Shown piece after piece: positions 15,409 to 44,743 of a stretch of DNA of 64,000 nt. A model generated the notes under the pieces. That model had not been told where the DNA came from, searched no databases, and worked only from the letters and a program-made list of their open reading frames with translations. This DNA comes from Herminiimonas arsenitoxidans (GTDB taxonomy: Bacteria > Pseudomonadota > Gammaproteobacteria > Burkholderiales > Burkholderiaceae_D): contig NZ_LT671418.1 in NCBI RefSeq assembly GCF_900130075.1, positions 2,294,001-2,358,000 on the forward strand, given 5' to 3'. The position numbers and the translations under genes are program-made. Numbering within the stretch: the first letter of the stretch is position 1; every line of letters starts with the position of its first letter.

Positions 15409-17067
15409 CTACCAATTTCTGAATCTGTTAGGGGGTTGATAGAGATTGCCTGACCATCTGACCAAATCCTTCATGGACTTCGCGGCCAGCAGATCACGTG
15501 TCGCCAGCGAGACATCGACACCTATATCTTCCGGACGCTGAATCACACCGCGATCGCGCAAGTTATCGACTACACGTTGATCGCGCTTCATACCGACTTC
15601 GGTAAAGCCAGCGACACCGCGCACCGCTTGCTCGCGCTCTTGCGGATTGCTGCATTTATGCAAATGCGCGATGCCTTCTTCGGTCACGATCTGCGTGACG
15701 TCATCGCCATAAATCATGACTGGTGGCAGATCGAGCGAGAGGTCTTCCATCAACTGCCATGCATCCAGCTTTTCGGTAAAAGTAGGACTCATTTTTTCGC
15801 GGAAAGATTCGACCATCTGCACTACCAGCTTGCGGCCGCGCGGCATGGTGGCGCCTGTGGCTGCCGCCGATTCCTGGCCGGCCTTCAACCACGGATAACT
15901 GACGTGACGACGTGCACGTGACTCGGAACCGAAGTTGGGTGCGCCGCCAAAACCAGTGATGCGATTGAGCGTAGCGGTTGAGCTATTGCCTTGCGTATCA
16001 ACCTGCAAAGTCGAGCCGATGAAGAGGTCAGCGTAGTGACCTGCGATCTGACAGAACACGCGATTCGAACGCATGCTGCCGTCCGGCCCGTTGAAGAACA
16101 CATCGGGACGTGCTCGCACGTACTCTTCCATACCAAGTTCTGAGCCGGCGCAATGTATGCCTTTGACGAAACCGGATTCAATCGCCGGAATCAGTGTCGG
16201 ACAAGGATTGACCGTCATGTAATTGCAGATCTTGCCGCGCAAACCGAGTGACTCGGCATACGTCGGCAGGATCAATTCAATCGCAGCCGTATCGAAGCCA
16301 ATGCCGTGATTCAAGCGCGTAACGCCATACGGTGCATACAAACCCTTGATGACCATCATCGCCATCAGAATTTGTGTCTCGGTAATCTGTGCCGGATCGC
16401 GGGTAAAGATCGGTTCTATGTAATGCGGCTTGGGTGCCTGCACCACATACGAGACCCAATCACCAGGCACATCGACACGCGGTACGGTATCAACGATTTC
16501 ATTGACTTGCGCGATGATGATGCCGTTCTTGAATGCTGTGCCTTCGGCGACAGCCGGCGTGTCTTCGGTATTCGGCCCGGTGTACAAATTGCCATTGGCA
16601 TCTGCACTTTGTGCGGCTATCAGCGAGACGCGCGGTGTCAGGTCCATGAAGTAGCGACCGTACAGTTCTAGATAGGTGTGGATCGCACCGACATTGATTT
16701 TTCCAGCTTTGATCAGGCGCGCCAGCCGCACGCCTTGTTCACCGGAGTAACAAAAATCAAGGCGCGATGCGACTCCACGTTCGAACACATCCAGATGCGA
16801 GGCCAAAGCCAGATTCGATTGAATGATGTGCAGATCGTGCACAAGATTTGCATCGAGTTTGGATAAAGCCAGTGCCAGAAAATCGGCATGCTTCTGGTTG
16901 TTGCCTTCGACGCACACGCGGTCACCAGATTCTATGACCGAGTGCAGCAATGCAGCGATATTCTCTGCCGCGACTACTTTGCCGTTGGCGTGCGGCGCAC
17001 CACGTTTAAGGCGCGCCGCTGTGTTACGTGCCAGCGTATCCCACTGAAAGTCCGGGGACATTTTCAT
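15409..17067 (-). CDS. mdcA: malonate decarboxylase alpha subunit, acetyl-S-ACP:malonate ACP transferase MdcA
   Basis: MdcA exchanges the acetyl group on the carrier protein for malonate, releasing acetate, and is related to CoA transferases. The 552-residue length is normal. Family segments include DRVCVEGNNQKHADFLA near residue 50, YSGEQGVRLARLIKAG near residue 107, and LNHGIGFDTAAIELILPTYAE in the middle. The ATG overlaps the tctA stop by four bases, which ties the transporter and enzyme genes into one operon. Confidence 0.95.
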   Translation of the reverse strand: MKMSPDFQWDTLARNTAARLKRGAPHANGKVVAAENIAALLHSVIESGDRVCVEGNNQKHADFLALALSKLDANLVHDLHIIQSNLALASHLDVFERGVASRLDFCYSGEQGVRLARLIKAGKINVGAIHTYLELYGRYFMDLTPRVSLIAAQSADANGNLYTGPNTEDTPAVAEGTAFKNGIIIAQVNEIVDTVPRVDVPGDWVSYVVQAPKPHYIEPIFTRDPAQITETQILMAMMVIKGLYAPYGVTRLNHGIGFDTAAIELILPTYAESLGLRGKICNYMTVNPCPTLIPAIESGFVKGIHCAGSELGMEEYVRARPDVFFNGPDGSMRSNRVFCQIAGHYADLFIGSTLQVDTQGNSSTATLNRITGFGGAPNFGSESRARRHVSYPWLKAGQESAAATGATMPRGRKLVVQMVESFREKMSPTFTEKLDAWQLMEDLSLDLPPVMIYGDDVTQIVTEEGIAHLHKCSNPQEREQAVRGVAGFTEVGMKRDQRVVDNLRDRGVIQRPEDIGVDVSLATRDLLAAKSMKDLVRWSGNLYQPPNRFRNW

Positions 17068-18572
17068 GCTACGACCTCCACTACTTTAGTGCGCTTGCCC
17101 AGCAAGCTGGAAATCAATGGCCATACCAAGGTAATCAATGCCAGCGTAGTGATCGTGCCGACCAGATAGTTGGACCAGAAGATGCTCATGCCACCATGCG
17201 ACAACAACATGGTTTGGCGGAAGGCGTCTTCTGCCTTGTCGCCCAACACCATCGCCAACACCAAAGGTGCCAATGGATAGTCCAGCTTCTTCAACACATA
17301 ACCAACTGCGCCGAACAAGACCATCAACCACACATCGAACATCGCGCCATGCACGGTATAAGCACCGATCGCACACAACAAAATGATGATGGGAGCAACG
17401 ATGGTGAAAGGCACACGTAGAATCGCAGCGAAGAAAGGCACGGTACTCAAGACCACGATCAAGCCGACCACGTTACCGAGATACATACTGGCGATCAAAC
17501 CCCAGACAAAATCCTTCTGCTCGACGAACAGCATCGGCCCCGGTTGTAAACCCCACACCATCAAGCCACCCAATAACACTGCTGCTGTTGCCGAACCCGG
17601 AATACCGAGTGCGAGCATAGGCAGCAACGCTGTCGTGCCGGATGCATGTGCTGCGGTTTCCGGTGCTAATACGCCTTCCAGGCTGCCCTTGCCGAACTGA
17701 TCTTTCTCTTTTGAGAAACGTTGTGCGATGCCGTAACCCATGAAGGATGCCGCCGTCGCACCGCCTGGCGTGACACCCATCCATGCACCGACCAGAAAGC
17801 TGCGAACCAGCGATGCCCAGTAACGCGGCAACTGACGCCATGTCTGCAAGACGACCTTGAGATTAATACCAGCCTGCTTGCCGCGGAAGGCCAAACCTTC
17901 TTCCATCGTCAACAGAATTTCACCTATGCCGAACAAACCGATCACGACAATCAGGAAGTCGACACCACGCAACAGCTCATCAAAACCAAACGTCATACGC
18001 AGGCCGCCAGTGATGGTATCCATACCGATGGTGGCAAGACCGAAACCCAGCATCATCACGAGTATGGTTTTGAATGGCGAACCGCCACCCATGCCAACAA
18101 AGCTGCAAAAAGTCAGCAGATAAACTGCGAAGAATTCCGGTGGACCAAACTTCAACGCGAACGAAGCAACCAGCGGTGCGAGGAAGGTGATCAAGACCAC
18201 CGAGAAAAACGCACCGATGAACGAACCGCTAAAAGCTGCAGTCAATGCTTCGCCGGCTTTGCCTTTCTGCGCCATCGGATAACCGTCGAAGGTCGTTGCC
18301 ACCGACCACGGCTCGCCCGGAATGTTGAACAAAATCGAAGTAATCGCACCACCGAACAAAGCGCCCCAATACAGGCACGACAACAAAATGATGCCGGCCG
18401 TCGGCTCCATCGAAAACGTCAGCGGCAATAGAATCGCCACGCCATTTGGCCCGCCCAATCCCGGCAATACGCCGATCAGGATGCCCAGCGTGACGCCTAT
18501 GAACATCATCAAAATATGCTGTCCCGTGAGGGCGACAGAAAACCCGTGCATCAAATAACCCAACTCTTCCAT
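17064..18572 (-). CDS. tctA: tripartite tricarboxylate transporter large permease TctA
   Basis: A 502-residue integral membrane protein with about 11-12 helices and the two TctA repeats. The first has GVLPGLGGPNGVAILLPL and the second GVTPGGATAASFMGYGIAQR, both typical of the family. With TctB and the periplasmic TctC it forms a sodium- or proton-coupled carboxylate importer. Its position, overlapping mdcA by four bases, makes malonate the likely substrate; this is an inference from operon context. AAGGAGA precedes the start. Confidence 0.92.
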   Translation of the reverse strand: MEELGYLMHGFSVALTGQHILMMFIGVTLGILIGVLPGLGGPNGVAILLPLTFSMEPTAGIILLSCLYWGALFGGAITSILFNIPGEPWSVATTFDGYPMAQKGKAGEALTAAFSGSFIGAFFSVVLITFLAPLVASFALKFGPPEFFAVYLLTFCSFVGMGGGSPFKTILVMMLGFGLATIGMDTITGGLRMTFGFDELLRGVDFLIVVIGLFGIGEILLTMEEGLAFRGKQAGINLKVVLQTWRQLPRYWASLVRSFLVGAWMGVTPGGATAASFMGYGIAQRFSKEKDQFGKGSLEGVLAPETAAHASGTTALLPMLALGIPGSATAAVLLGGLMVWGLQPGPMLFVEQKDFVWGLIASMYLGNVVGLIVVLSTVPFFAAILRVPFTIVAPIIILLCAIGAYTVHGAMFDVWLMVLFGAVGYVLKKLDYPLAPLVLAMVLGDKAEDAFRQTMLLSHGGMSIFWSNYLVGTITTLALITLVWPLISSLLGKRTKVVEVVA

Positions 18573-18609
18573 GAATGTCTCCTTCTATGGATATCTTTAT
18601 TAGCGGTAT

Positions 18610-19131: not shown

Positions 19132-20136
19132 TTATTGAGGCGCTGCCAGGAAACCTGCTTTTTTCAACAAGTCGTAATGCATGTCTGCATCGGTCTGGAG
19201 GAATTTCTGCAAAGCTGGGCCGGTGAGGAGGGCATCTTTGAAAGCATTGCGATTGGAGAATTCTTTCCATTCTGGTGTTGCAACTATCTTCTTCATCTGA
19301 TCGACGTAATAAGCAACCTGATCCGGTTTGACACCAGAAGGCAGGAACACACTACGTTGCATCAGATAAGTCACGTTCAGGCCAACCGATTTGCAAGTTG
19401 GAATGCTGGACCATGATTCCGTCGCAGTAACTTTGTCGGTTTGTGCCATCGGTTTGTCATCGAACACACACAGCGGACGCAGTTGACCAGCACGCCATTG
19501 CGAAACGGCTTCAACCGGATTGTTGACGGAGACATCGATGTGATTGCCGACCAATTGCGTCGCCACATCGCCGCCGCCTTTGTATGGGATGTAATTGAAT
19601 TTAACGCCTGCTGCTTGTTCTATCGCGGCGAACAAGAGATTGTCTTCACGCTTGGAACCGGCACCACCGGCACGAATTTCACCTGGCTTGGCTTTGGCTG
19701 CTGCCAACAATTCAGCGGCAGTTTTATATGGTGAAGCGGCATTTACCCACAGTACAAATTCATCCATCACCAGATTGGCGACCGGCGTCATGTCTTTCCA
19801 TGTGAAAGGGACATTCGCCGTCAGCGGCAACATATACATGTGCGATGCAGAAATCAGAATCTTGTTTGGATTGCCTGGCGAAGTTTTCAAATCGATGAAA
19901 CCTTCCGCACCACCGGCACCACCTTTAGGCGTCACGATGTATGGCTTGTTGGCAAGACTGTGTTTGACGACGATACTGGACATCAAACGTGCCATTTGAT
20001 CGGTGCCGCTACCGCTACCGGAAGGCAAGACCATTTCGACGGCTTTGGTTGGTTCCCACGCGAAGGCCGTGGAGCAGAGCATGGTTGCGGCGACGAAAGA
20101 AAGCGACGCACGTGTGGCGTTGAGGCGGTTGAACAT
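19132..20136 (-). CDS. tctC: tripartite tricarboxylate transporter substrate-binding protein TctC
   Basis: A periplasmic binding protein of 334 residues of the Bug/TctC type. A Sec signal peptide occupies residues 1-26 (ATRASLSFVAATMLCSTAFA). VLPSGSGSGTDQMARLM follows, then the ligand loop VTPKGGAGGAEGF and YIPYKGGGDVATQLVGNHID. ATG 20136 is chosen because AGGAGACA lies just upstream and the signal peptide starts there. As first gene of the operon it presumably captures malonate or a related dicarboxylate. Confidence 0.92.
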   Translation of the reverse strand: MFNRLNATRASLSFVAATMLCSTAFAWEPTKAVEMVLPSGSGSGTDQMARLMSSIVVKHSLANKPYIVTPKGGAGGAEGFIDLKTSPGNPNKILISASHMYMLPLTANVPFTWKDMTPVANLVMDEFVLWVNAASPYKTAAELLAAAKAKPGEIRAGGAGSKREDNLLFAAIEQAAGVKFNYIPYKGGGDVATQLVGNHIDVSVNNPVEAVSQWRAGQLRPLCVFDDKPMAQTDKVTATESWSSIPTCKSVGLNVTYLMQRSVFLPSGVKPDQVAYYVDQMKKIVATPEWKEFSNRNAFKDALLTGPALQKFLQTDADMHYDLLKKAGFLAAPQ

Positions 20137-20766
20137 GTTTTGTCTCCTGATTATTTTGCCGCGCAAACTCGTAAATCGCACGGTCTGGTTGGTGGTGCTT
20201 TTGCACCTGATTGATATATTCTGCTTATATATTAGTTGTGTCAATCAATTTTACAGGTTTTTTAATTCATCGAATTTCGACCGAAATACAACAATTATCT
20301 GAGTCAAGAATGCAGATTTTGACTGGCTCATCTTTTCCGCTAAAGCACTAACTTGCTGGGCACCAGGCTTTCCTGAGGGCGGCCAGCAATCACGCCACCT
20401 TGCAGTAACACACGACGCATTACTTAACGGCCTTTACTGGCTGTACATCTGTCGTATTTTGTATACGCGGCAGCGAGTAATCGATGGGCTAAAGAGGGTA
20501 AAGATCGGGATCTTCTGCGGTACAAAATGACCAGACGAAGCTGACCAGTATTCACAATTTCTGCGCCCATAACTAATAGGACTTTCAAGAGTCGCCCCAG
20601 AGGGGAAACACTGCTATCACCCTATTCCGATACTGATTGTTTGACGGTCATCAAAAGAGTGCGACTATGATAATCAATCGCACGGAGAAATATTTGTGAT
20701 ATCTTAGATGGACATAATTAATATATAAATCGTTTCGAGACCCATTCCCATCCTCTGGAGGAGACT
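20137..20766. other. divergent control region between the malonate operon and the ABC importer operon
   Basis: No protein gene is supported in these 630 bases. The left end carries the tctC promoter and AT-rich dyads. The right end carries a possible promoter (TTGACG at 20641, TATGAT at 20666, spacer 19) and GATATCTTAG at 20698, similar to the shared element. GGAGGAGA precedes the importer start. The middle has no recognisable signal. Confidence 0.6.
20211..20244 (-). promoter_or_regulatory. tctC-mdc operon promoter with candidate GntR operator
   Basis: On the minus strand TTGACA (20239-20244) is separated by 17 bases from GAATAT (20216-20221), about 70 bases before the tctC start. The spacer and -10 are an AT-rich array (plus-strand ATATATTAGTTGTGTC at 20227-20242). 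This matches 14 of 16 positions of the element overlapping the hydroxylase promoter at 29385-29400. A GntR/FCD protein is the likely binder. Confidence 0.55.
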
Positions 20767-22047
20767 ATGAAAAAGCCCGTTTCATCGCTTCAAAGACGTA
20801 CCGTTTTAAAAGCTGCCGGTGCTGGCATCGCGACCGGATTACTTGGCATCCCTGCCTTCGCACAAAACAAACCTTTACGCGTCGGCATCATTGCACCGCG
20901 TGGCGGTGTCGCCGGCACTATCGGCGAATGCGGCTTGCGCGGAGTCGAATGGACCACTGCCCGCATCAATGCGGCCGGTGGTATCGGCGGCCGCAAAGTC
21001 GAACTGGTGATCCAGGAAGAGACTTCACCGAAAGACACCATCGATCGCTTCCGCAAACTGGTGCTACAGGAAAAAGTGGATTGCGTACAAGGCATCGTGT
21101 CCTCCGGCGTCAGCCTGGCGCTGGCACCGGCCGCTGAAGATTCGCGCATGCCAACCATTTTCTGGGATGGCACCACGCAGGACGGCGTGAAAGAAACCAT
21201 GCCTAAGCCTAAGTATGTATTCCGCAGCACGGATAACGAGTGCGAAGCGGTGATGGCCTCGCTGCTGGCGATCAAACATTTCAAAGGCAAGTTCAAGCGC
21301 ATCGCTTGCGTCAACCCTGATTACTCGTATGGCCGCAATACCTGGACCGCATTCCAGGCGCTGTTGAAGAAATACGGCATCGAACACGAAGTCGTATCCG
21401 AACAATGGTCGAAGATCGGCAACCTAGACCTCACCGCCAACGTCGCTGCACTGAAGGCTGCCAAGCCTGACCTGATTTTTTCATCGCTGCTGTTTGCCGA
21501 TTTGCCGGTCTTCATGAAACAGGCGCACAACGCCGGTCTCACCGAAGGTACACGCTTCGTCTTGCCGGCCGCCGGCTGGCAACACACCGCGATGAAAAAA
21601 GAGTTCACACCTGAAGGCATCGTCTGGGGTCATAACACGATGTACTTCGATGATCCGAAAGCATCGGCAACGCAGAAGGAATTCGTCAAATGGTATGCCG
21701 ACAAGTACAAGGATTACCCGCACTGGGAAGCTGACCGCGCGTATTTCTCCATGATGGTCTACAAGGCTGGCCTAGAGAAAGCACTGGCAGCGAAAAAATC
21801 CTGGCCTACAGCGGAAGAAATTTGCCTGGCGATACCAGGTGTGCAGATCGAGTCGCTCGGCGGTAAAGGTGCAATGCGCGCCGACCATATTGCCAACCAG
21901 ACTTTCCATCAGGGCTTGTCGACCAATAAAAATAACTACGACTTCCCGACACTGGCATCAGTCGAGACCATGTATTCCGACCAATTGCAGAAACCGACAG
22001 GCGCGGATTTCTGGGAATGGCTGAATACCGCAAACTTCAAGATCTAA
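20767..22047 (+). CDS. ABC transporter substrate-binding protein (LivJ/HAAT type)
   Basis: A 426-residue periplasmic-binding-fold protein (type 1). The N-terminus has a twin-arginine-like signal (QRRTVLKAAGAG, cleavage after AFA), so it may be exported folded through Tat. RVGIIAPRGGVAGTIGECG and GIVSSGVSLALAPAAED resemble branched-chain amino acid, amide or urea receptors. The ligand is unknown. It heads a five-gene importer operon with 72 bases before the first permease. GGAGGAG lies seven bases before ATG. Confidence 0.88.
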   Translation: MKKPVSSLQRRTVLKAAGAGIATGLLGIPAFAQNKPLRVGIIAPRGGVAGTIGECGLRGVEWTTARINAAGGIGGRKVELVIQEETSPKDTIDRFRKLVLQEKVDCVQGIVSSGVSLALAPAAEDSRMPTIFWDGTTQDGVKETMPKPKYVFRSTDNECEAVMASLLAIKHFKGKFKRIACVNPDYSYGRNTWTAFQALLKKYGIEHEVVSEQWSKIGNLDLTANVAALKAAKPDLIFSSLLFADLPVFMKQAHNAGLTEGTRFVLPAAGWQHTAMKKEFTPEGIVWGHNTMYFDDPKASATQKEFVKWYADKYKDYPHWEADRAYFSMMVYKAGLEKALAAKKSWPTAEEICLAIPGVQIESLGGKGAMRADHIANQTFHQGLSTNKNNYDFPTLASVETMYSDQLQKPTGADFWEWLNTANFKI

Positions 22048-43157: not shown

Positions 43158-43478
43158 TCAGCCTGGGCTGAAAATTTTCAAACCTGCGATGCCACAAACA
43201 ATCAGCAAGATACAGAAAATACGCACTGCAGTTACCGCATCACCCAGCAATACCATTCCCAGGATTACCGTACCGACCGTACCGATACCGGTCCAGACCG
43301 CATACGCAGTTCCTACCGGCAAAGTCTTCATGGCGATGCCCAGCAAAGCAACACTGACCACCATTGCAAGCACAGTACCAACAGTAGGCCATAGCTTGGT
43401 AAAGCCCTCGGTATATTTGAGGCCGATTGCCCATCCCACTTCGAGCACGCCTGCGATTACGAGAATAAGCCAAGACAT
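43158..43478 (-). CDS. gdx: guanidinium exporter Gdx/SugE, small multidrug resistance family
   Basis: A 106-residue four-helix SMR protein. [20 protein letters not shown] (about residues 13-32) is the Gdx signature with the essential glutamate and tryptophan, and [18 protein letters not shown] is the third helix. Gdx proteins export guanidinium in exchange for protons. ATG 43478 has AGGAG nine bases upstream; the longer reading is an artefact of the leader. A guanidine-II riboswitch lies directly upstream, which supports guanidinium as the substrate. Confidence 0.93.
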
Positions 43479-43499
43479 GAATAGATCTCCTATAAAGTC

Positions 43500-43544
43500 A
43501 AAGGCCGTCCCCGAATGTTGATGGAGCGGTGGGGTCGTCCCCAC
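43500..43544 (-). promoter_or_regulatory. guanidine-II (mini-ykkC) riboswitch
   Basis: Read on the minus strand, the leader holds two hairpins with ACGR loops: GTGGGG-ACGA-CCCCAC (43529-43544) and GGGG-ACGG-CCTT (43501-43512), separated by 16 bases. The twin ACGR loops are the defining feature of the mini-ykkC motif. The linker contains GCTCCAT, complementary to the GGAG of the AGGAG ribosome site at 43487-43491. Guanidine binding would then free the ribosome site and raise Gdx translation. The second stem includes two G-U pairs, so it is weaker. Confidence 0.82.
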
Positions 43545-43593
43545 TTCCTTGTTCTGCCAGCGAACATGCGAGATACATGGCGGCATATATATC

Positions 43594-43608
43594 GCACCAT
43601 TATAGTGC
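43594..43608 (-). promoter_or_regulatory. NtrC-like site overlapping the gdx -10 element
   Basis: On the minus strand GCACTATAATGGTGC fits the NtrC consensus GCACY-N5-RGTGC. The central TATAAT may also serve as a -10 for gdx. The distance to the ATG is about 116 bases, leaving room for the riboswitch. No sigma-54 promoter is seen downstream, so an activating role is not certain; the site could also be a coincidence. Confidence 0.5.
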
Positions 43609-43840
43609 AAAAATATGCGCTAAGCCAGAAATATGGATCTTGTGCCGAGTAAAATCGGCAAACTGACATGCTTGCAACCGGCATGCTGCGGCTGAAACAA
43701 CAGGGAAAAAGAACTTATGCGAGTAGTTACTCTCTTTTACAGCCCCGTAGATTCAGGAACGAGGCCGAAAAGATCATCTTATGCAAATAATCTATATCTG
43801 TTATTTGAAAAGGAAATTGGTGCGACGCGGCAATACTTCA

Positions 43841-43917
43841 TATACTTCAGTTGTCTCCTCTATGTCTCCTCCTTTGATATAGATTTAGCCCGCCTCCTGC
43901 GCGGGCTTTTTTTTGCC
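43841..43917 (+). ncRNA. tandem small RNA copy 1, 16S-tail mimic with terminator
   Basis: A 77-base repeat with TATACT as probable -10 at its left edge and TTGGTG 18 bases before it. The transcript would start near 43853 and run about 60 bases. It has CUCCUC, then CCUCCUUU (matching the 16S rRNA 3' tail), then an intrinsic terminator GCCCGC-N7-GCGGGC with eight T. A further CTCCT lies in the terminator loop. It resembles the betaproteobacterial toxic small RNA class, which blocks translation through anti-Shine-Dalgarno pairing. The function here is inferred. Confidence 0.7.
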
Positions 43918-43974
43918 CAGAATTATAGAATTAAGCAATTACGTTTGGCTACATGCAGCAATTCACTGACATAA

Positions 43975-44068
43975 CTGCTGACATATCAAAATGATCACAT
44001 CCCATGGTATTCACATTGTGAATGTCCGATATCATAAAAGGAAAGTAGCCTGATAACACGGCCGTCCT
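43975..44068. other. spacer between the two small RNA copies
   Basis: It holds a perfect 15-base palindrome ATTCACA-T-TGTGAAT (44009-44023) and a CTGACATA direct repeat. The palindrome lies about 20 bases before the position expected for the -35 of the second copy, so it may be an operator. No gene is seen. Confidence 0.4.
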
Positions 44069-44145
44069 TATACTTCAGTTGTCTCCTCTATGTCTCCTCC
44101 TTTGATATAGATTCAGCCCGCCTCCTGTGCGGGCTTTTTTTTGCC
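44069..44145 (+). ncRNA. tandem small RNA copy 2, 16S-tail mimic with terminator
   Basis: This copy differs from copy 1 at two of 77 bases: T to C before the terminator stem and C to T within its loop. The stem, T-run and all anti-Shine-Dalgarno blocks are unchanged. TATACT is again at the left edge, but the -35 region (GTAGCC) is poor, so this copy may need an activator or may be weakly expressed. The copies start 228 bases apart. Confidence 0.67.
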
Positions 44146-44161
44146 TAATCGATACAGATAC

Positions 44162-44743
44162 TCATTTTTTCGCTCTTTTTGGCGAGACATGGCAAAAGCA
44201 ATCAACCGCATGATCATTCACCATGCCGATAGCCTGCATATAGGCGTAAATGATGGTCGACCCTACGAATTTAAAACCGCGCTTGGCCAGATCTTTGGAC
44301 AAACGATCTGACAATTCTGTCTTTGCCGGTGTTTCCTTCGCGCTAAGCCACGCATTCACTAGTGGCTTGCCATCTACATACGCCCACAAGAATGGATCCA
44401 GCCCGCCGACTTCCTCGCGCAAGCGCAGATAAGCTTGCGCATTGGTAATAGTAGCAGCCACTTTCAGTTTATTGCGCACGATGCCTGGGTCGGCTAGCAG
44501 CGAGGCAACTTTTTTCGCATCGTAACGCGCTATTTTTTCTGCATCCCACTGATCAAAGGCCGCGCGATAAGTCTCGCGCTTATTGAGTATCGTCGACCAG
44601 CTCAGTCCTGCTTGTGCACCTTCCAGATTCAGCATTTCAAACAAGCGTGTTTCATCATGGCAAGGCACGCCCCATTCTTCATCGTGATATGCGAGGTAGA
44701 GAGGATTGGCTGGATTGGCCCAACTGCAACGAGTAAGTGTCAT
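44162..44743 (-). CDS. tag: DNA-3-methyladenine glycosylase I
   Basis: A 193-residue Tag-family base-excision glycosylase that removes 3-methyladenine from alkylated DNA. RCSWANPANPLYLAYHDEEWGVP is the N-terminal signature; the zinc site uses Cys6 with His/Cys near the C-terminus (NDHAVDCFCH). GLSWSTILNKRETYRAAF is the glycosylase segment. The stop lies 17 bases beyond the second small RNA, on the opposite strand. Confidence 0.93.
   Translation of the reverse strand: MTLTRCSWANPANPLYLAYHDEEWGVPCHDETRLFEMLNLEGAQAGLSWSTILNKRETYRAAFDQWDAEKIARYDAKKVASLLADPGIVRNKLKVAATITNAQAYLRLREEVGGLDPFLWAYVDGKPLVNAWLSAKETPAKTELSDRLSKDLAKRGFKFVGSTIIYAYMQAIGMVNDHAVDCFCHVSPKRAKK

Follow-up and report, generated by a model that had tools for sequence, protein, structure and literature searches.

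Tandem RF02278 small RNA genes of Herminiimonas arsenitoxidans and GGAGAC ribosome-binding sites of uptake genes as their probable targets

Two small RNA genes lie in tandem at the locus

The window analyzed here, a 64 kb stretch of the Herminiimonas arsenitoxidans genome, contains two 77-bp direct repeats at positions 43841-43917 and 44069-44145, with an offset of 228 nt. Direct comparison of the copies revealed mismatches at 43886/44114 (T/C) and 43900/44128 (C/T) and at no other position, in agreement with a preliminary description of this DNA that was made from its letters alone. Both repeats start with TATACT, continue with CTCCTC and CTCCTCCTTT, and end in a 7-bp terminator stem followed by eight T; this order of elements had likewise been pointed out before and is confirmed by the sequence and by a terminator scan. 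Within the window, CTCCTCCTTT is confined to the two repeats. The covariance search with the Rfam model of betaproteobacterial toxic sRNAs, proposed as a check in the preliminary description, was run and assigns both copies to family RF02278 (“Betaproteobacteria toxic sRNA”) with 67.7 bits for copy 1 and 69.1 bits for copy 2 (E-values 1.7e-11 and 7.4e-12), above the gathering cut-off of 50 and covering model positions 1-64 of 64. The suspected family membership is thereby established. Taking the span of the covariance match as the extent of the RNA, copy 1 occupies 43852-43914 (+) and copy 2 44080-44142 (+), each yielding a predicted RNA of ~63 nt, close to the 60 nt expected earlier.

Folding energies amount to -21.6 and -21.7 kcal/mol (z-scores of -5.8 and -5.3), and none of 200 shuffles of either copy was as stable. 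Each RNA folds into two hairpins with an unpaired 5' end, the second hairpin being the intrinsic terminator. Hairpin 1, missing from the preliminary description, spans 43859-43883 (+) in copy 1 and 44087-44111 (+) in copy 2 and carries the 16S-like CCUCCUUU block in its loop UCCUCCUUU, at 43867-43875 and 44095-44103, respectively. The seed GUCUCCUC, equivalent to Site 1 of the Bordetella RNA S17, is located at 43853-43860 (+) and 44081-44088 (+); in the fold of copy 1, GUCUCC is unpaired and the final UC lies inside hairpin 1. Two CU-rich anti-Shine-Dalgarno stretches are thus presented unpaired, GUCUCC in the 5' strand and UCCUCCUUU in the loop. The terminators were identified by terminator scan at 43887-43914 (+, stem-loop 43887-43907) and 44115-44142 (+, stem-loop 44115-44135), both with eight T, and are among three terminator-like sites within 43600-44200, compared with 0.2 expected from shuffles. 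These repeats and RNA features are not due to chance.

Two-sided changes in stem 1 further support hairpin 1. In 27 hand-picked sequences, which are not independent and were hand-anchored by script, pair 3 of this stem is CG in 18, UA in 6 and UG in 3 cases, and pair 5 is CG in 9, AU in 8, UA in 8, UG in 1 and not paired in 1. When 32 sequences were aligned with MAFFT and folded to a consensus with RNAalifold, stem 1 was misaligned, so that solely the terminator (7 pairs) emerged. Folds, terminator scan and stem 1 changes hence agree on the two-hairpin architecture of RF02278, with an intrinsic terminator as second hairpin. RNA identity, structure and conservation, as well as the ribosome-binding site (RBS) association described below, were determined by computation.

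RF02278 members in the genome and beyond

The own genome (G000) harbors three RF02278 matches over the cut-off, namely the pair and a third copy at G000:C1:1316128-1316192 (-) (L003/L082, 61.3 bits), and five weaker ones below it. The third copy differs in stem and loop (CCAAC/GUUGG) and adjoins an ORF that resembles a Crp/Fnr-type regulator by eye, with no NCBIfam match. Third copies were found in nine genus genomes, including the own one, among the matches listed. One of the five sub-threshold matches, L006 (G000:C1:2494025-2494090, -, 27.9 bits), is the only one of them with the seed at its start; it begins with TGTCTCCTCT, ends in a terminator-like hairpin and is possibly a diverged fourth member.

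As expected for RF02278, the same core occurs in Betaproteobacteria: a search of the genome collection with the exact 31-nt core retrieved 15 records, named as Herminiimonas, Oxalicibacterium, Lacisediminimonas, Paucimonas and Oxalobacteraceae/Burkholderiales bacterium. A match at E 1e-4 is present in 78 of the 369 genomes of a class-wide sample, and three of the 369 reach the cut-off, G000 being among those listed. Neighboring copies at a distance of at most 1 kb are present in five of 23 other family genomes among the matches listed (G013, G017, G026, G027 and G033), some of these matches being below the cut-off. Expansions include six copies over 16 kb at G017:C113 125971-141581 among the matches listed, three copies with a spacing of 185 nt at G026:C1 961093-961529, and 19 matches at E 0.001 in G034. 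Features located well upstream, a TTGCATTGCA-like element and a TATAAT-like box, are common to solitary copies of CCACC/GGUGG type (L070, L073 and L074) and hint that these are made as a longer precursor under a different regulator. The double-hairpin family RF02278 is already known, and by its sequence the pair is a further member of it.

The pair is fixed in the genus

The tandem pair is present at one place in every genus genome examined, the own one and 12 relatives (13 of 13), with a spacing of 206-228 nt. In 12 of 12 relatives it lies between a SET-domain gene and tag, and sugE lies near the pair in eight of the 12 relatives' stretches of ~3 kb. Over the 26 genus copies, the 31 nt from CTCC onwards display a mean column identity of 0.999, compared with 0.39 for the ungapped downstream flank. 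Selection on the RNA, previously suggested by the positions of the two substitutions, is borne out by this near-invariant stretch in 26 copies from 13 genomes. The terminator loop differs among genus copies. The CTCCT noticed in this loop is therefore present here and not a conserved element, and its candidacy as a third conserved anti-Shine-Dalgarno site was rejected.

Searching the genome collection with an exact two-copy pattern gave no match, probably because the pattern demanded exact copies and a narrow gap. Outside the genus, a single RF02278 match was found in each of four loci with enough flanking sequence (L011/G027, L023/G028, L043 and L050), a count that leaves out L029 and L042, where the sequence ends too near the sRNA. 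The SET gene adjoins the match in all four, and tag is nearby in L023 only. These sequences would be explained most simply by a single tandem duplication in the ancestor of the genus. Promoter-stretch identity is 0.66 and 0.67 between orthologues and 0.62 between the two copies within one genome; since the stretches are similarly alike across and within genomes, a tree of the copies is not readable from them.

The two copies differ in their promoters

Both copies carry a -10 box TATACT whose position is conserved in the genus, located at 43841-43846 (+) for copy 1 and 44069-44074 (+) for copy 2. It is accompanied by a -35-like TTGGTG (43818-43823) at copy 1 and by a weaker TAGCCT (44046-44051) at copy 2. 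Neither copy's hexamers pass a plain sigma-70 consensus scan, which makes an activator likely. A probable activator site, TATTC-N7-GAAT.TCNGATAT, is located upstream of copy 2 at 44008-44032 (+) and represents the genome's best match, with one mismatch, to a genus consensus close to TATTC-N7-GAATATCNGATAT..GAAAAGGAAATTGG-N14-TCCCTATACTTCA. The corresponding element of copy 1 (43780-43804, +) is degenerate, with 7 of 10 arm positions. The spacing of the upstream element, with its center near -65, presumably resembles that of LysR-type sites. In the own genome and in G001, G004 and G011, the inverted repeat is much lost at copy 1 (6-7 of 10 arm positions) and kept at copy 2 (9-10 of 10), and three of these four genomes harbor the poorer -35 (TAGCC) at copy 2. 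The preliminary description had proposed, from the weak -35 of copy 2, that the copies are expressed under different conditions. A difference between the promoters is evident, and different inputs would fit it.

A further occurrence of the upstream element, with two mismatches, is located at L103 1501-1525 (G000:C1:2643413-2643437, -). An element of this type is near-constant (TATCCACAA..TGAATATC) in nine of 13 genus genomes and precedes an oxalate/formate antiporter gene (TIGR04259) in the own genome; it may instead be part of a local GTGGATA repeat array.

Related small RNAs in other bacteria

Herbaspirillum and the present organism are members of the same bacterial family, Oxalobacteraceae. 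Hsnc059, 063, 086 and 107 of Herbaspirillum seropedicae belong to the same Rfam family RF02278 (PMC7011215); the word “tandem” is absent from the main text of that paper. Four homologs are described in Burkholderia cenocepacia as “double-hairpin RNAs” ncS03, ncS05, ncS27 and ncS62, with predicted RBS pairing and targets mostly among transport and metabolism genes (PMC5688073). Over-expression of ncS27, also reviewed in PMC10987360, slows growth, and the name “toxic” stems, as told in PMC5688073, from growth inhibition in E. coli. These RNAs and the present pair share the covariance model, two hairpins, a U-run at the end, several copies per genome, CU-rich unpaired stretches complementary to RBSs, and a small size (three of the four measure 57-67 nt; PMC5688073, Table 1). 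An upstream motif is common to three of the four (PMC5688073). The Burkholderia copies, however, “occur not in tandem” (PMC5688073), whereas two copies here lie in tandem and share an upstream element, and a third copy is distant.

A family relation is stated by the authors of work on S17/S17S of Bordetella pertussis, which has a 5' Site 1 and a loop Site 2 as anti-Shine-Dalgarno stretches and many transporter candidates, as here (PMC11722255). Positions 2-28 of S17S are conserved across a range of Betaproteobacteria, and Sites 1 and 2 are reported to be 100% conserved in a range of species. S17S is Hfq-dependent and represses BP2158 via Site 1 pairing, as shown by compensatory mutations; the candidates include 32 transporter-related genes or operons, and the tested candidates BP0442 and BP1445 showed no effect (PMC11722255). 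RNase E releases S17S from a longer transcript, whereas here the -10 box lies directly before the seed, so that a primary 5' end is expected. NmsRA and NmsRB of Neisseria meningitidis, to which the pair is likened by description, are likewise tandem siblings with UC-rich unpaired stretches, a feature also found in the present pair. They differ by three stem-loops, 70% sibling identity and TCA-cycle targets, and repress metabolic mRNAs, including TCA cycle ones, by Shine-Dalgarno pairing under RelA control (PMC5362039).

GGAGAC ribosome-binding sites precede uptake genes

The complement of the seed, GGAGAC(A), precedes 22 of 701 ORFs (at least 120 codons, starts set by rule) in a sample of 864 kb, comprising the window and 40 stretches of 20 kb. 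No dinucleotide is more over-represented than AC after GGAG at starts, with 22 cases seen vs 10.2 expected (n = 172; p = 6e-4, uncorrected for the 16 dinucleotides). A Pfam scan of 20 of the 22 GGAGAC ORFs identified uptake-system parts in 10 (four TctC, TctA, DctP, DctQ, Peripla_BP_6, SBP_bac_6 and BPD_transp_1), and the proportion is 8 of 12 for GGAGACA. Forty of the 147 ORFs with other GGAG sites were scanned as well; the families listed for them (25 of 63) comprise no TctC, one TctA, a glutamate symporter, an AcrB-type pump and two porins. Predicted targets in the window are a TctA gene (17067-18572, -) with GGAGACA at 18576-18582 before its start, a TctC receptor gene (19135-20136, -) with GGAGACA at 20141-20147, and a periplasmic binding protein gene (20767-22044, +) with the RBS GGAGGAGAC, in which GGAGAC starts at 20760.

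At the scale of the own genome, eight of 11 TctC genes have a GGAGAC RBS at the usual spacing, and nine of 11 if GGAGAC is allowed nearer to the start codon. Similar proportions of the genes examined were obtained for the genus relatives with RF02278 G001 (8/10) and G009 (4/5), and further matched genomes gave 7/7 in G166 (39 genes present), 6/13 in G027 (53 present) and 0/1 each in G026 and G030. The RBS link is mostly missing despite RF02278 in G283 (2/7, 38 present) and G037 (1/8, 115 present). Genomes without RF02278, meaning no match at E 0.001 in a search whose filters lose some weak matches, gave 1/8 in G045 (29 present), 0/8 in G046 (97 present), 0/7 in G057 and 1/3 in G053. GGAGAC was thus found at 36 of 63 TctC genes with and two of 26 without RF02278 (Fisher p = 1.2e-5, kinship ignored), or, with the genus left out, at 16 of 37 vs two of 26 (p = 0.002, the related genomes not being independent). 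The matched set consists of 15 chosen genomes (the own one plus sets of six and eight), with G013, G038, G048 and G055 lacking TctC; all 12 unmatched genomes were searched, and seven of them lack TctC. Four TctC loci that were short or at an edge are left out, one being the only locus of G041, and the TctC genes of G043 and G044 are outside the count. The unmatched genomes with TctC genes belong to other families. The comparison is confounded by descent, so that GGAGACA could simply be the form customary for these receptor genes in their lineage.

Probable mode of action

We assign a probability of roughly three in four to the reading that the tandem RF02278 genes encode seed-pairing repressors of solute-uptake mRNAs with GGAGAC(A) RBSs. 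Each copy, equipped with its own promoter (-10 TATACT) and its own terminator, would give rise to an RNA of ~63 nt with the mostly single-stranded seed GUCUCCUC as its 5' end and a second anti-Shine-Dalgarno stretch in the loop of hairpin 1. Aided by Hfq, the seed would pair with mRNAs having a GGAGAC(A) Shine-Dalgarno site, mainly those of periplasmic solute-uptake systems (TctC/TctA, DctP/DctQ and other binding proteins), and thereby block ribosome entry, so that uptake of organic and amino acids would fall when the RNAs accumulate. From the Burkholderia and Bordetella members, the pair would be expected to be transcribed, to depend on Hfq and to act as repressors in this organism; an hfq gene is present in the genome. 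By analogy with the action of S17 on one target, base-pairing repressors are the most likely identity of the pair, rather than ribosome mimics or toxins.

Our judgement is evenly balanced on a wider idea, namely that the seed GUCUCCUC reads an extended RBS code: receptor genes (TctC, DctP and others) would tend to share GGAGACA in genomes with the sRNA, one RNA family would throttle an entire importer class at the level of translation, and tandem duplicates with diverged promoters, here one with an upstream activator site and the other with a better -35, would provide two inputs for one output. The link between the seed and GGAGACA at tripartite tricarboxylate receptors is suggestive and correlational, judged from sequence. 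A narrow literature search found no paper on it, and the words tripartite, TctC and tricarboxylate are absent from the main text of PMC11722255 on S17. New here are the tandem duplication fixed in one genus, the diverged promoters and this correlational link with its counter-examples. RF02278 takes its name from what over-expression does in E. coli, and its physiological role has been clarified only in part; with the pair fixed in a genus and the seed complement marking a defined class of uptake genes, importer-class control by an extended Shine-Dalgarno sequence becomes testable.

Alternatively, the sRNAs may be real and GGAGACA at TctC a coincidental RBS of the lineage, the true targets being other mRNAs, such as those of the TCA cycle as for NmsR or of sigma-54 regulators as for S17. 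Both of these systems have targets in other classes (PMC5362039, PMC11722255), and G037 and G283 harbor the sRNA nearly without the RBS association. Duplex energies point the same way, as they show no excess over scrambles: the mean seed duplex energy at the 701 starts does not fall below that obtained after scrambling the flanks (11 of 39 scrambles were as low), and the three sites at or below -16 kcal/mol were reached by three of 39 scrambles. We nevertheless regard a coincidence as doubtful, because GGAGACA is concentrated on uptake genes in the own genome, in agreement with the Bordetella candidates and the Burkholderia predictions.

Another view, in part anticipated by the preliminary description, holds that CCUCCUUU mimics the 16S tail, binds Shine-Dalgarno sites broadly and slows global translation in the manner of a growth-arrest factor or toxin. 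In its favor, CTCCTCCTTT matches the 16S-type end of the own genome (TGGATCACCTCCTTT, found at two places), the block is retained in all 26 tandem copies, as had been expected for close genomes, Sites 1 and 2 of S17 are fully conserved in the species compared (PMC11722255), and the family owes its name to growth inhibition in E. coli (PMC5688073). The wider family, however, keeps a different element. Among 77 matches (72 distinct), picked by coordinate among the matches listed plus the window's two with a covariance model that itself favors the seed, GTCTCCTC is found at the start of all 77, and so is the 5' GUCUCCUC, whereas CCTCCTTT, that is the CCUCCUUU block, comes next in 38: all 26 tandem copies, none of nine third genus copies and 12 of 42 matches outside the genus (12 of 26 genomes), being missing from the other 30. 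The element most widely kept in the family is therefore the 5' seed. Across these matches, some lines retain the 16S-like block and others have lost or altered it; in the tandem pair it, too, is under strong constraint. The GU that precedes CUCC in the seed is absent from the 16S-type end TGGATCACCTCCTTT, and it matches the GGAGAC sites of the uptake genes. S17S, moreover, leaves exponential growth of E. coli unimpaired with only a modest effect on stationary-phase entry, and acts on defined targets (PMC11722255). Action at RBSs stands as the likely mode, and 16S mimicry as the core of the function is less supported, with CCUCCUUU in 12 of 51 matches outside the tandem pair and the seed in 77 of 77; broad titration appears improbable to us.

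That one copy is functional and the other a decayed or silent relic might be read from the lost inverted repeat at copy 1 and the weak -35 at copy 2 in the own genome, and is highly improbable given that none of the 13 genomes examined has lost either RNA body, with 31 near-invariant nt between diverged flanks. A short protein-coding gene overlapping copy 1 (ORF 43717-43974, open for 85 codons in the window) was rejected and has a negligible chance, as the 12 relatives begin with another codon or hit a stop in the same frame, with at least one stop in that frame in each.

Neighboring elements

A Guanidine-II riboswitch is located beside the pair at 43500-43546 (-), with 37.7 bits at a cut-off of 32, and precedes a gene for a SugE-type SMR exporter (43158-43481, -). 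Of the five named genus records scanned, L044, L048 and L049 also have it near the pair, and L039 and L045 do not.
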